Assembly: GCA_964019415.1 (NCBI GenBank)
Contig: OZ025870.1
Coordinates: 10,610,955 to 10,674,954 of the forward strand
Length of the DNA: 64,000 bases
Reading direction: 5' to 3'
Source: Ianthella basta
Lineage: Eukaryota; Porifera; Demospongiae; Verongiida; Ianthellidae
The notes under the pieces were generated by a model. The model was not told the origin of the DNA. It did no database searches and was given only the letters and a program-made list of their open reading frames with translations. Made by a program: the position numbers and the translations under genes. Below, one piece after another: positions 2,363 to 27,504 of this stretch. How positions within the stretch are numbered: position 1 is the stretch's first letter; every line of letters begins with the position of its first letter.

Positions 2363-4487
2363 CTACGCAAGAAACATTAGCTCATTCTTCTCCCCCTGGT
2401 TCCTTGATATGCAGCACACACAGGTTGCTTTAAAGCGTCTGAGTACCTTCTTTAGAAAACTGCGATGAGGGAGATCCTATAACATTATATGAGATAGATG
2501 TGAGAGGTAGTGTGCTGAGGTGCAGAAGACGGCTATATATATAAATATGTTATCAGTGACAAAATGAGTAGTGTGCATGTATATTATACATGTGTTTACA
2601 TGGTTTTGCTAGCGTTTGCATGTGCATGCATGTTTGTGTAGTACATGTTTGTTGTGCATGTGTGCTTGTGTTTGCATGCATGCGTGTGGGTACATCTGCA
2701 TGTATAATGTATAAGTCCAATGCAACGCGTTATTAAGAATGATTATATATACACATAGAAACGGTTCTTCAAACATATGAAAATTTACTATACTCATAAA
2801 TTATTAATTCAATATAGCAAGATATGTCGCGGATATGTCTAGATATAATTATATGTGTTTACGTTGTCACTCAACAACTTGCAAGCAAGCTTACCATGAC
2901 TTTGAACTCCTCTTCTTCACTGTCATGTGAAGGAACTTGATCATTACCTGTTTTTGCCTGAGGTGACTTCTGGTAACCCGGTAATATATATACGGTATAC
3001 GGCTTTGACTGTTGCCGAGTGCGATGTCTCTGTCGTGCAATACTGCAAACAGGTAAAATATAGCAGCTGAAATGAACTGCTGAGCAAAACAACAAACAAC
3101 AGTTAAGCACTGAATGCAGGTTATTTCATTTGACTCAGGTGTCGACCTTTGTCATGAAGTGGCCAGGGAACGTACGTACAATGGTTACTCACTCACTAAA
3201 GGCCACCATTGTTGTAACATGCCTGCGCATGCATCACCATAATTGAGCTAAGCCTTTCATTGAGCACTATAATGACTTATATATATATATTATACACATT
3301 TCCTAGCTTGTCTGCTAGCATAATTGTATAGCATAGCAAATAATATAATAATTACTATATGAATATGGTTACATATACCTTTGTTCACTTGCAGCATTGA
3401 TACCTAGCACACCACCACTGGTTGCAAATGTATATTGTCCTGGTACCCCGGGCCCAGAGATAGTGTTTGTGTTCTCCTCCTCCTGGCGCATTGGTGTACT
3501 AGCAACCACAGGCCTAGGCCCAGGATCTGAAGAGCGGCGGTCGGGTGGATGTATCTCTGGAATGTGCTGTTCCTGGCGCTGCTCCTGCATATGCTGGTGC
3601 TGGTGGTGCTGGTGTTGGTTCTGCTCCTGGTGGGGGTGCTCCTGATGTGGGTGGTGGTCTTGCAGGTGCTGCGGTCGTGGTGTTGCCCATGTTGTGGGTG
3701 CTGTTGTAGCTGCTGGTGGTGGTGGTTTGGCTGACAGTGTCCTGCACCATGATTCAGGGTGGGGTTATGTGGTTGGGAGCAACTACATGATGTGGAAATA
3801 GCAATGCTTATTCAATGATTGAGCATAGACAATTTAAAAGTGGGCATCAAATACATATTAATAGTAATTTGTATAGTTATACTCCCATAATTGGAACATA
3901 ATTATTGGCTTCAATTATAGTCTCGTCCACAGCTCAAACACGGCCGCCATTCAAAATTAATACCTCACCCCATTAAAATGGCATTTGAAAGAAGGGTACG
4001 AGGCTATATACATCTCATACTGCACTTCATATAGCATGCAGCTGTATATCGCGTAATTCTATAATTCTATAATTTCGCGAATTTGGTCAAATTGCGAACA
4101 TTAAACCTCACGAAATTTTCTCACTATACGGTACTTCACAAACAATAGCCAAAATATATACCTTGCTACAGTTGCAGCTGGATGGGTAGCATGATGAGTT
4201 GCACATCCAGCATTGTGACGAGCAGCGTGAGGAGCTGTATGTCCAGAATTGTGATGAGCAGAGCGAGGAGCTCCACGGCCAGCAACATGACGAGCAGCGT
4301 GCGGAGCTCCACGGCCAGCAACGTGACGAGCAGCGTGCGGAGCTCCACGGCCAGCAACGTGACGAGCAGCGTGCGGAGCTCCACGGCCAGCAACGTGACG
4401 AGCAGCGTGCGGAGCTCCACGGCCAGCAACATGCCAAGAAATGCCAAGAGGTATGCATATAGGGTCGATATATGCATGTCCATGCAT
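2363..4487 (-). CDS. Paralog 3 of a Pro/Gln/His-rich small protein with a C-terminal basic helix and Cys-Cys motif
   Basis: I do not recognise this family. The model has four exons, read 4487-4162, 3741-3379, 3042-2895 and 2476-2363, with GT-AG borders and matching phases (2, 2, 0), giving about 316 aa. Exon 1 encodes a 12-residue repeat (HVAGRGAPHAAR type), aligned by position with the Ala-rich N-terminus of the gene at 10380-11569. Exon 2 is His/Gln/Pro-rich. Exon 3 ends in an acidic patch (SEEEE). The last exon encodes RSFLKKVLRRFKA, then Cys residues, then SRNQGE and a stop. That exon is also present in the two upstream paralogs, which fixes the frame. The start at 4487 is the first Met of the exon-1 frame and is uncertain. 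The basic helix next to cysteines could be a membrane-contact or palmitoylation site, which is inference only. Confidence 0.6.
4196..4431. repeat. 36-bp tandem repeat inside the first exon of the 2363-4487 gene
   Basis: Five near-identical 36-bp units containing CCACGGCCAGCAA recur every 36 bases from about 4273, preceded by two degenerate units. Because 36 is a multiple of three, all frames stay open. The frame used by the gene model gives HVAGRGAPHAAR. Confidence 0.9.
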
Positions 4488-22900: not shown

Positions 22901-25900
22901 AAACAAACAAACGAACTGAATTATATATAATATTATAGATATACTAAATGAGAAAATCACAATTCTTCTCACTCATCCAAGTACAAAGCTTTTATTTCAT
23001 CAATCTTAGTTTGTCTCCACAGGAATCAACCAAGGCCATCATGGACCGCTTTATGCTGGACAAGAAACATGTCTACTGCGAGATCATTGAGGCTGACGTG
23101 TCAGGAACTCCCCCAAATGACCCCCATTTTGATGAAAACTGCCAGACTGTGCTGGATCGCATTATGGATGACAAGGTGGGAATCTTCACTCTGTGTATAC
23201 GTACATGTAATTCATTGTGTTTGAAGGCCTCATGCAACTTCTTTATGTACGAAAAGCTGATCATAATTTAGTATGACTGGCATCCACGATACTACTGAGT
23301 TTGACAGGATTGAAGTGACTATTCATGCATTCAGTGAGAGGCAGTTCATGGTCACTCCCTCATCTCGTTTATTCCTTTCCCAGGAGCTAGCCCAACATCC
23401 TACCATTAGGGCTATCCTGGACTACAAATGGAGAAAATTTGCAAGATGGCATTACATGTGAGGTTGCAGAGAATCTGGCTATAGTCATGCACCTGTTCTG
23501 TGTTGTAGTGATGACATTGTATTCTTGCGTTCTCCCATTCAGGCGTTCACTCGTAGTGTATGCTCTCCGCATGCTATTTCTTGCACTCGCTCTGCTCATT
23601 GCTGCACGACCTGACCTGGACAACCCTGGCTGCTACAGAAATGTATGGGATTACGTCAGAGGAGTTTGTGAGGGGATTTGCATCATCCTATTTCTGGCCA
23701 AATTCGTTGATGAGATGCAAGAGATGTGCAAGTACATATATGTCTGCACTTACTGCTCATCTGCATTTGTATGTATGCATAGCTTCATTATGTGAATTGT
23801 TCTTGCGCTTCACAATACACATCATTAATACAATGTCTGCCTTTTGCAGCTTAAGGAAGAAATACTTCAAGGACTACTACAACTACATGCAACTGCTTGC
23901 AGTGTTCCTCCCCGTTTTGATCATCCCCTTCCGAGCAGCCACCGCATGGTGTGCCTCCACTGGAGATGGATACTGTGTAGACCCCACTCTCCTACCAAAT
24001 GCTACCAATGCCACACTGGACATCAACCAGGCTTGCATTGATGCATCGAATGTCCAGTGGATTATTGCCGCTCTGGCCTACATGGCCAATGCCATTCTGA
24101 TCTTTGAGCTCTTATCTGTGTTCAGGTATAAAATTTACATATACCTATAACTATTGCATATACCTGTGCGGGTAGCCAGAGCACTATACACGTCTCTACA
24201 TTCCTTCTGCAGGACAACGGGTGTGTACGTGAGAGTTATTCTAAAGATTATTGTGTCCGACCTGCTGAAGTTTATAGTGATCTTTGTCGTTGTCCTATAC
24301 ATCTTTGTTGGGTCCTTTTATCTGTCCCTGAGGGCCGGAGTGACCGTCAACATGTCAAATGGAGTCACCACATCAGACTTGGAGCGATTCAGACTAGATA
24401 CCCTGTAAGCGGCAGAAGTGATGCACAAGCAGTTTGCCCCTGCATGTGAAGTTTGTTCCATATACATGTGCACATCATACAGGTACCCCTGGAACGTGGT
24501 GTTCACTGGTATCCGCATCCTAATTGAGGGTGGAGATATCTTTAGAGGCCAGTACTTTAATGAAGAGTCAGGCTACCAGTGGGTGTACATGCAGTGATAC
24601 CACCTGGTCCTGCATGCCTGTCCATTTGTGTGACTCTCCTTCACATCACTCCCTCCCTCCACAGATGGCTCTCTGTTGTCTTGTACCTAGCCTTCCTGTT
24701 TAGTATGACTGTGATCCTGCTGAGCATGCTGATTGCCCAGATGAGTGATACGTATAGCAAAATACACGAAGGTGTGAAGAAGAGCTTTGCTATTGTAAGG
24801 GCTACAGGCATTAACAGGATCCAGAAAGAAAACTGGTTGCCATTTTGTAAAGAAGTGAGTGCAGAATACAGGCAATATTGCTAAGCATGTGCATGTGTTA
24901 AAGTGCCTGACCTGCATCTTTCTTTTTTACCTGCAGACGTACAGGAAGCGCTACTACTGCCCAATAGTAGAGACAGGTTAGTCATTTTGTTGCTCTTGTA
25001 AATGTTACATTTGTAATGAATCTGGAATTTCTCACATTGGTCTGATCAGTACCAGTACTAGAGATCTACGCATTTTTTACAATCTGAAAGTATTAAAATA
25101 TTAAAGCGAAGGGCACAGATGAGGGGCTATCAGCTTGTTACTTTCCAAGGGGTACCAGTATATGGGTCTCCTTGTGTTATGAGATGTGATGTAAGCTAGT
25201 CTAATAGAGTAGTCTATTTGCGCCCCTTTATTCTACAAGACTTAGACACTAAATTCTAAGCTGCATGAGCTCTACATATCCATAATATCTTCATTAAAGG
25301 TCACTGTGTATTGCATGAACCTGAATTGTGTTAATGCTATATCTTACGCTCATTTCGTGAGTCCCCTTACAAGCTGTTAGATATTAGAAGGATGCAGGGA
25401 AATCAGAAAATTTAATTCACAAAATATCCTCAGGTGCATCATGCATGACCTGCAAAGTACCCATCTAAACGACCACCTCTTTGAAAAGACCACCTTAAAA
25501 AATAGGACTGCTTTGGTTTCTAAATCAGTCCCAAATTCATGTATGTATTTAGTCAGGTGTCGCGTGACCCCTCCTCACAGAAGGGTCAGGTTAAGTCTAA
25601 TACATTGACTTGTCCACGTGGAATGCAATTATCTGCTGTGGAATGTAATTATTGTGCAAGATTATGCCTTGCTTGTGGCTGCAAGTATGCGCAACGGCTC
25701 GCGACATTTACCTAATTTTTCATAATAGCCGTCAAAGGAGCGACAGCAAAGACTATCGATGTCCCTTCGACCGGCAACACCAGGACAAACACTGTCGGCG
25801 GGCACACGTAGCACAGGCTCTTACCAAAGCCGGTTGGCAAAACAGCGAAAACATCCCTCCTAGAAACGATGCCAGACACGACCTGAAGTTGCTCTGGCTT

Positions 25901-27504
25901 CATGGTATAATAACCAAGGCGCTGAATGGCTTCCGTCGCAACATATAACACTCTCTGGTCCATGCTCGGGTCTGCTGCCATTTGCAGATACGCAAGGGAT
26001 AAATATTTCACACCTTTCCTGCAATCGGATTGGGCACGCAACCATTGTGGCGTGCTACACACTTCAATGTATTAGACTTAACCTGACCCTTCCGCGAGGA
26101 GGGGTCACGGGATGCCTGACTAGTATGTATTATGATTTTCAGAATTAAGACCACCTCAATAATAAGACCACTTTGCATGGCCGGACCATGGTCTTAATTC
26201 TGAGGTTCCACTGAACTTACCATACATAGCCACTCCTCTATCCTCAGTGCTCACTGATAAAGAGTTGAGACCACACGAACAGGAGGCTGAGCAGAGATTT
26301 GTGTGAGTTTGTTCATATTGTAATAATAACATTAATATAATATGCACAAAATACCAACCGAACATTTTGTGAATGGCTGTCAATATATGTATGGGGTCTG
26401 AGATGTTTCCAAAAAGTCACAAAGGAAGCTGGCTATGGTACATTGTGACTTACTGGCCAAAGCTTGTTAGGAATTACTGAACAAGGCCAACGCATGTGCA
26501 TGGTGGGCATCTGATTGGACGAATGATGCAGAGATAGCCACACCTTAAACACTGGCCATTTTCAGCAGCTATTTTAATGATGTTATATTGTATGGGCAAA
26601 TTTCTTGGAAGAAAAATTGGCTCAATCTGTGATGCCTAGTGGCCATTTTGCCACTGCACAGCGATTAGGTCCCTGCATGATTGTGTTTTTGATGTGCATG
26701 TAAGCGGTTTTCTTGGTACGTGTGTGTACCAATCTGAAAATTCATGCAGGCACCCTTGCTTAATGTGCAGTGGAACCCCACTAAAGGACCACCTCTGTAA
26801 AATGACCACCTTAACAATAGGACCACTTTGGCTTAGTCCCAAATCTATGTATACATGAATAATGGTACTCAGAATTAAGACCACATTGAAAATGCAGTGT
26901 AACCTTAGAAATAAGATCACCATCCAGGCCATGAAAAGTGTTCTTTTTCGATGTGGTCTTTATTCTGATAGCCATTATTCATGTATACATGAAATTGGGA
27001 CTAAACCAAAGTGGTCTTATTATAAAGGTGGTCGTTTTATAGAGGTGGTCGTTAGCAGAGTTCCACTGTAAGGCCACTTTTCATGGCCCGGATGGTGGTC
27101 TTATTTCCGAGGTTCCACTGTACATGTGCTGTGCTGCTTATCCCAGCTTGCATCCTCCTTGTGCATACAGCACAATGTACTTTAGAGTTACCAAACTGTT
27201 TGAAGAGCAGCAGCAGGAGCTGAAGAAGGAAGCCAAGTTGATGCAACAGCGATTTGACCAGCTTGAGAAAGTGATGGCTGAAATCACCAGAAGACTGCCG
27301 CCGGATATCACTGCCAGAAGACTGCGACACGTTACCATTGTCAGAAGATTTCCGCAGAATACTGATGTAGAGCGGGACGGCCCTACCTGCAATCAACCTG
27401 ATGGTGCAGAGGACCAAAGTGATACCAACAGCTGTGCCATTAAATGGAGTGACACTGATGATGACCTTGATGATGGAGATGCTGGTGGTGGCCGGGATGC
27501 ATAA
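19910..27504 (+). CDS. TRPV-like ankyrin-repeat cation channel, gene A (931 aa)
   Basis: Fifteen exons with consistent phases: 19910-20128, 20323-20466, 20580-21018, 21984-22296, 22379-22460, 23023-23175, 23384-23457, 23543-23731, 23850-24125, 24213-24404, 24483-24578, 24665-24854, 24937-24976, 26248-26302 and 27171-27504. Residues 1-121 are a charged region of unknown fold. Ankyrin repeats fill about 122-350 (ATPLHLVMDK, TALHVTAQND, TPLHLAAYCG, TPLHMAAKGG). Membrane segments: S1 about 477-496, S2 512-533, S3 549-569, S4 606-629, S5 648-670, pore loop 695-715 with IRILIEGGDIF, S6 728-755 ending LIAQMSDTY. The post-S6 stretch resembles the TRP-box region of TRPV channels. The S3-S4 loop is long, with Cys residues and two N-glycosylation sites. 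The C-terminus is a coiled coil and an acidic tail (EDQSDT, WSDTDDD). ATG 19910 matches the MSA starts of its paralogs. TRPV-like (TRPVL) rather than TRPA is a judgement. Ligand unknown. Confidence 0.88.
21255..21600 (-). pseudogene. Fragment of a LINE-type reverse transcriptase C-terminus
   Basis: Antisense in gene A intron 3. One frame reads SPFVPIAVETPGVFGPEAFSF followed by LGRRI and a hydrophobic segment; upstream sequence is in another frame. The VP-IAVET-GV-GP-A-F-LGRR pattern resembles the C-terminal region of non-LTR retrotransposon polyproteins as I recall them. It is short and frameshifted. Confidence 0.45.
22712..22890. repeat. Dispersed repeat, copy 1 (second copy 33256-33405)
   Basis: Shared core includes GAAGGATATCTCTTC, GGCGATTTCAACCCGTGGAG and TATAATCCCTAAG, collinear over about 150 bp. 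Copy 1 is followed by an (ACAA)n-like tail near 22890-22915. Both copies lie in introns of paralogous channel genes in the same orientation, but at different introns. Confidence 0.8.
25541..26131. mobile_element. 573-bp TIR transposon with 9-bp target duplication carrying a helicase fragment
   Basis: The body is 25550-26122. The ends form 59-bp inverted repeats with about five mismatches, starting TAGTCAGG. The flanks are an exact 9-bp repeat GTATGTATT (25541-25549 and 26123-26131). A 9-bp duplication is typical of Mutator-like (MULE) elements. It lies in gene A intron 13, inside an older MITE. The minus strand encodes the start of a RecQ-like helicase directly inside the right repeat, so this looks like an internally deleted copy of a larger element that encoded a helicase. 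Confidence 0.85.
25712..26062 (-). pseudogene. RecQ-like DEAD/DEAH helicase, N-terminal fragment (116 codons)
   Basis: The reading frame begins at an ATG immediately inside the right terminal repeat. Residues about 45-90 read EAIQRLGYYTMKPEQLQVV, then RRDVFAVLPTGFGKSLCY, which is the RecQ-type entry motif followed by Walker A (GFGKS). VAPLTAIMK near the end corresponds to motif Ia. The frame then stops, and the DEAH box, motifs III-VI and the zinc domain are absent. A full RecQ core needs about 350 or more residues, so this cannot be an active helicase. There is no frameshift in the retained part. Known RecQ proteins are genome-maintenance helicases; here the copy belongs to a transposon. Confidence 0.85.
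26765..27120. mobile_element. Two head-to-head copies of the ACCACCT/AGGTGGT MITE-like family
   Basis: 26765-26950 begins CAGTGGAACCCCACTAAAGG. 26940-27120 is largely the reverse complement (AAAGTGGTCTTATTATAAAGG, AGAGGTGGTCG, GAGTTCCACTGTA), followed by a terminal fragment ending GAGGTTCCACTGTA. The pair forms an imperfect large hairpin in gene A intron 14. Confidence 0.75.

Follow-up and report, generated by a model that had tools for sequence, protein, structure and literature searches.

Why would a 573-bp transposon in the genome of the sponge Ianthella basta carry the beginning of a RecQ-type helicase gene? The element lies at positions 25550-26122 of the window, the whole stretch of 64,000 nucleotides of contig OZ025870.1 that was analysed, and an earlier note made from the sequence had raised two possibilities, an undescribed helicase-bearing superfamily of terminal inverted repeat (TIR) transposons or capture of a host gene. 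The element is very probably a non-autonomous DNA transposon, resembling a miniature inverted-repeat transposable element and derived by internal deletion from an AcademH-type element; helicase-carrying transposons of this sort are already known, and it is a new example of them. The question of where the helicase piece came from is answered by sequence comparison: it is most likely a remnant of the transposon's own gene rather than a captured host gene. The features of the element are as follows.

25541-25549, no strand: left copy of the target-site duplication (TSD), 9 bp, GTATGTATT (sequence; 9 bp family-wide)
25550-25613, plus strand: terminal inverted repeat at end B, away from the helicase start, beginning TAGTCAGG (sequence, arm alignment)
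25614-25711, no strand: end-B subterminal sequence, with GGAATG(C/T)AATTAT repeated (sequence)
25712-26062, minus strand: open frame, RecQ-type helicase start (frame list, Pfam, family copies, profiles, solved-structure matches)
26059-26122, minus strand: terminal inverted repeat at end A, the helicase end (sequence, arm alignment)
26123-26131, no strand: right copy of the target-site duplication, GTATGTATT (sequence)

Direct reading of the window confirms the exact 9-bp repeat that had been noted on both sides of the element. The inverted ends are likewise present and are slightly longer than the 59 bp first given, each arm comprising 64 nt (89% complementary; 57/64 positions by count). Both ends and the first ~90 helicase codons are kept in this copy, which has no room for a transposase, and an internal deletion joins the end-B subterminal sequence to the helicase piece near 25712. 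The consensus motif of the end-B subterminal sequence occurs 145 times in the genome, versus 0 for a control. An Rfam scan of the window gave 0 matches.

The 116-codon frame was found as described, with the RecQ entry motif, Walker A (LPTGFGKSLCY) and motif Ia, and is cut just after motif Ia. Its match to Pfam DEAD is narrow (26.5 bits, cut-off 26), and it also matches solved RecQ-family helicases (best hit 1oyw, E 7.9e-7). The listed frame opens with GTG and the 27 codons that precede an ATG are open run-on; the real start is likely this ATG at codon 28 ('MAAD', ~25981). At the other end, the frame of the window copy is closed by a TAG, at a position that is a Gln codon in the family consensus. 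Across copies, substitution per site is 4.5% in the helicase stretch and 3.7% and 4.4% in the neighbouring sides, while 201 nonsynonymous changes were observed versus 210 expected from the flank spectrum, and 9 stops versus 11. Judged by these substitution patterns, the helicase frame in the short copies drifts near-neutrally and the truncated frame shows no sign of a present coding role; a functional frame in these copies was rejected on the same ground.

The element belongs to a family. The genome searched comprises 209 Mb in 96 contigs, with the window on contig C3, and a 24-base end allowing up to 3 mismatches gave 225 forward and 234 reverse matches (459 in all), whereas the same pattern read backwards gave 0 + 0. 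The family is therefore not due to chance, and the other genomic copies that had been anticipated do exist. From 38 loci, 29 distinct short copies with both ends 450-700 bp apart were kept; the nine dropped were five places already counted, one identical element, one without a recognised right end and two exceeding 700 bp. Among these 29 copies, the two 9-bp flanks are identical in 18; a further 6 have a single mismatch, 2 have two, 1 has three and the last 2 have six or seven, such that 26/29 have at most two mismatches. Exact matches at duplication lengths of 7, 8, 10 or 11 were found in 0/29, and 0/812 crossed pairs of left and right flanks match. The duplicated sequence varies from copy to copy and its length is 9 bp, and the mean identity of the short copies to their own consensus is 95.7%.

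Longer copies with the TAGTCAGG end were also identified (L015, 1516 bp; L071, 1704 bp; L073, 2542 bp; L074, 1587 bp; L080, 1646 bp; L072, 808 bp; L075, 789 bp; L079, 765 bp). Inspection of their frames and similarity indicated that all eight are the short element plus extra or inserted DNA; no frame resembling DUF6589, the family discussed below, was seen in any of them by frame inspection, and Pfam searches on the frames of L070, L071, L073 and L074 only found no transposase. A conserved 67-aa piece lies within the 2.5-kb copy L073 (1811-2011, plus strand); it belongs to a repeated family with 69 genome matches and has no Pfam match, and it was set aside as a transposase candidate. At L070, the helicase fragment and a P2X7-C-terminal-like domain (PF20478, 6.5e-10) share one frame (3085-3702, minus strand), and a THAP domain (1.6e-11) lies ~2 kb away; this suggests that one transposon inserted into another or that two types have been joined into a chimera.

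What a complete element may look like is seen in relatives of the short copies. A RecQ family search of the genome gave at least 33 matches (a lower bound, with 29/633 candidates scored), and comparison of near-identical copies showed several of these RecQ genes to start a few hundred bp inward of a terminus reading TAGTCTCG or TAGTCTGG. The complete element at L057 is 6878 bp long, with 129-bp inverted ends (99%) and an exact 9-bp CGGCAGGAG on both sides. It has two convergent genes, a helicase gene with the Pfam domains DEAD and Helicase_C reading from one end and a second gene, matching DUF6589 (E 4.5e-29), reading from the other. A second complete element, at L046 (5391 bp; ends of 89 bp at 88%; exact 9-bp GTGACCAGT on both sides), has a RecQ frame and DUF6589 in convergent order. 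In both, the ends start with TAGTC and the RecQ gene lies just inside one end. The earlier note had proposed that the short copy is an internal-deletion product of a larger transposon whose first gene is RecQ-like, and this is supported.

The pairing of the two genes extends beyond these elements. DUF6589 has 58 matches in the genome and none in 14 control genomes (prokaryotes). It lies within 6 kb at 17/26 RecQ loci, where hits within 10 kb were merged and the neighbours L052 and L054 count as one locus, and 18/40 DUF6589 loci are near a RecQ among the matches listed. Convergent orientation with DUF6589 is seen for 16/18 paired helicase genes. A sequence of the form TAGTC[TA][CG]?G occurs within 700 bp upstream at 11/11 transposon-type helicase loci examined, against a chance expectation estimated here at ~0.1 per locus, the matches at L061 and L064 being less clear than the others. 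Nine RecQ loci lack the pairing. Two of them (L061 and L065) have TAGTC upstream, and four (L043, L045/L063, L051/L059 and L062) are taken for the host's own RecQ genes. The remaining three (L039, L040 and L044, at C11:2787019, C21:3030457 and C5:7910441) hold a different RecQ gene, whose three copies share 96-98% identity across kilobases. At 303 bits it has the highest score of the genome's RecQ matches, its frame comprises 766 aa and there is no DUF6589 nearby; this is possibly another RecQ-bearing mobile element.

These helicases allow the origin of the fragment to be examined. The fragment consensus is ~51% identical to the helicases of L057, L065 and L041 and 38-43% to those of L049, L053, L061, L064 and L066. 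In the tree of the helicase against other RecQ genes that had been suggested, run on 17 short pieces, a split with support of 81/95 places the fragment among the transposon helicases, most forks being open. Its score is 84 bits against a transposon-type helicase profile and 45 against a profile of other RecQ genes, these profiles having been built from 11 and 4 short pieces, respectively, and so not being equally broad; the labels of the two classes were assigned by the authors from the RecQ search, the comparison of ends and the DUF6589 pairing. Host-gene capture was rejected on this grouping with transposon helicases as against the four RecQ loci unlinked to DUF6589, short pieces as they are. 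A Pack-MULE-like version of capture, in which a Mutator-type element acquired the first part of a host RecQ gene and was moved by a transposase of Mutator-like elements (MULEs), is very improbable for the same reason and also because the genome holds complete elements that carry RecQ, begin with the same TAGTC and have 9-bp duplications. Duplications of 9 bp and long inverted ends do fit MULEs, but these traits are shared with AcademH and thus not discriminating. The genome contains 13 MULE transposase matches; none was linked to the ends of the element, the ends of those 13 loci not having been read. In favour of capture, the consensus just past the helicase piece reads CAG|GTAAGT, a possible splice donor; the CAGGTAAGT codons also read as protein, however, giving DQVS as in conserved RecQ (...KDQV), and therefore no splice site is needed. 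A Mutator helper would not be needed.

How the short copies moved can be proposed from the complete relatives. DUF6589 would be a DDE transposase that cuts at TAGTC...GACTA ends and joins the cut ends across a 9-bp stagger, and the helicase may help to open or process the ends or the target. The 573-bp copies would have spread in trans because a full-length relative supplied these proteins. The predicted structure of DUF6589 is most like the DDE transposases of the P element and Hermes, with moderate scores (~8% identity, root-mean-square deviation 6-8 A). Its sequence profile found no convincing relative among solved structures (best E 0.15). On its predicted fold, DUF6589 is a probable DDE transposase family. 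The work yields two complete elements and a likely function for this Pfam family, along with a defined helicase-transposase pair on which to study why a RecQ helicase is present in some cut-and-paste transposons.

Several observations weigh against derivation from an AcademH-type element with these two genes. A search for long copies with a shared transposase beside the helicase had been suggested, and DUF6589 is indeed linked in the relatives, but no full-length element with a TAGTCAGG end was found in the genome. Among the end-B sites listed (100 of 145), 87/100 have an inward-facing helicase piece no more than 1.43 kb away, and the other 13 have none within 12 kb. None of these 100 sites and none of 142 helicase pieces has a DUF6589 match within 15 kb, a check that used 142/153 helicase-piece matches (some overlapping pieces left out) and 41/58 DUF6589 matches (second pieces of a locus being mostly omitted). 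The parent with the TAGTCAGG end may have been lost, or elements ending in TAGTCT may be enough as helpers. The fragment is 33-38% identical to L060, L046 and L067, no nearer than to four other RecQ pieces (35-42%), and its own branch in the 17-piece tree is long. Synonymous changes in the short copies exceed the flank-spectrum expectation (142 observed versus 110); CpG decay is one possible cause, and a remnant of earlier constraint another. At L049 and L050, two of the 18 pairs, RecQ and DUF6589 run in the same direction; Foldseek alone, searched with the predicted DUF6589 structure, gave 0 matches at E <= 0.001. Finally, the helicase and the 9-bp TSD fit published AcademH, a comparison made by description and not by sequence.

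This last point favours a reading in which the RecQ- and DUF6589-bearing TAGTC elements form a superfamily separate from Academ, as does the absence of DUF6589 by name from the open literature searched, subscription papers being outside that search. Such separation is nonetheless quite unlikely. AcademH was reportedly described by Kojima in 2020, in a paper whose title, as given in reference lists, is said to name animals and fungi. Scallop DUF6589 proteins are among the matches, and the complete elements of 5.4 and 6.9 kb may be set beside Academ of bivalves, where a passage in PMC10294476 reports it as abundant with a mean length of 5565 bp. The proposal of an undescribed superfamily is not upheld, as helicase-encoding AcademH with 9 or 10 bp TSDs (part of PMC10045372), RecQ in Academ (part of PMC3627910) and KolobokH (part of PMC9587614) are already in print. 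There is only a slim chance that the TAGTC-end elements stand apart from Academ and that DUF6589 is a DDE transposase family unnamed in the literature searched.

As for the surroundings, copies of another repeat border the element at 25471-25496 (GACCACCT...) and 26139-26203 (TCAGAATTAAGACCA with its inverse); the element lies between them, and an older repeat was therefore probably its insertion site or lay next to it. Approximately 670 bp upstream of the element, a frame at 24579-24884 (plus strand) matches the Polycystin cation channel (PF08016, 2.8e-5) and is probably an exon of a channel gene.

Among known systems, those of the P-element and hAT (Hermes) transposases differ from the present elements, whose ends begin with TAGTC and whose duplications are 9 bp long. 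Mutator-like elements and Pack-MULEs share with them 9-bp duplications, long inverted ends and gene pieces in short copies, but the gene piece here comes from a helicase native to related transposons. KolobokH, a lineage of the TTAA-duplicating Kolobok, is a DNA transposon with a RecQ helicase beside its transposase, and the part of PMC9587614 concerned reports it only from fungi. The RecQ gene of the relatives recalls KolobokH and is common to AcademH, and THAP and P2X7-C-terminal-like domains adjoin one fragment copy (L070). That copy is a single chimeric locus, however, and the varied duplications here are of 9 bp and not TTAA, so that a KolobokH-like element is extremely improbable, being disfavoured by duplication length. 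AcademH, a lineage of Academ, is by the account in part of PMC10045372 a helicase-encoding TIR transposon with TSDs of 9 or 10 bp. The short copies and both complete elements have duplications of this length. The complete relatives encode the helicase (DEAD and Helicase_C at L057) and carry the RecQ-linked DUF6589 with its DDE-like predicted fold, AcademH being known here by description only; the window copy differs in being non-autonomous and in keeping only a remnant of the DEAD start of the helicase.
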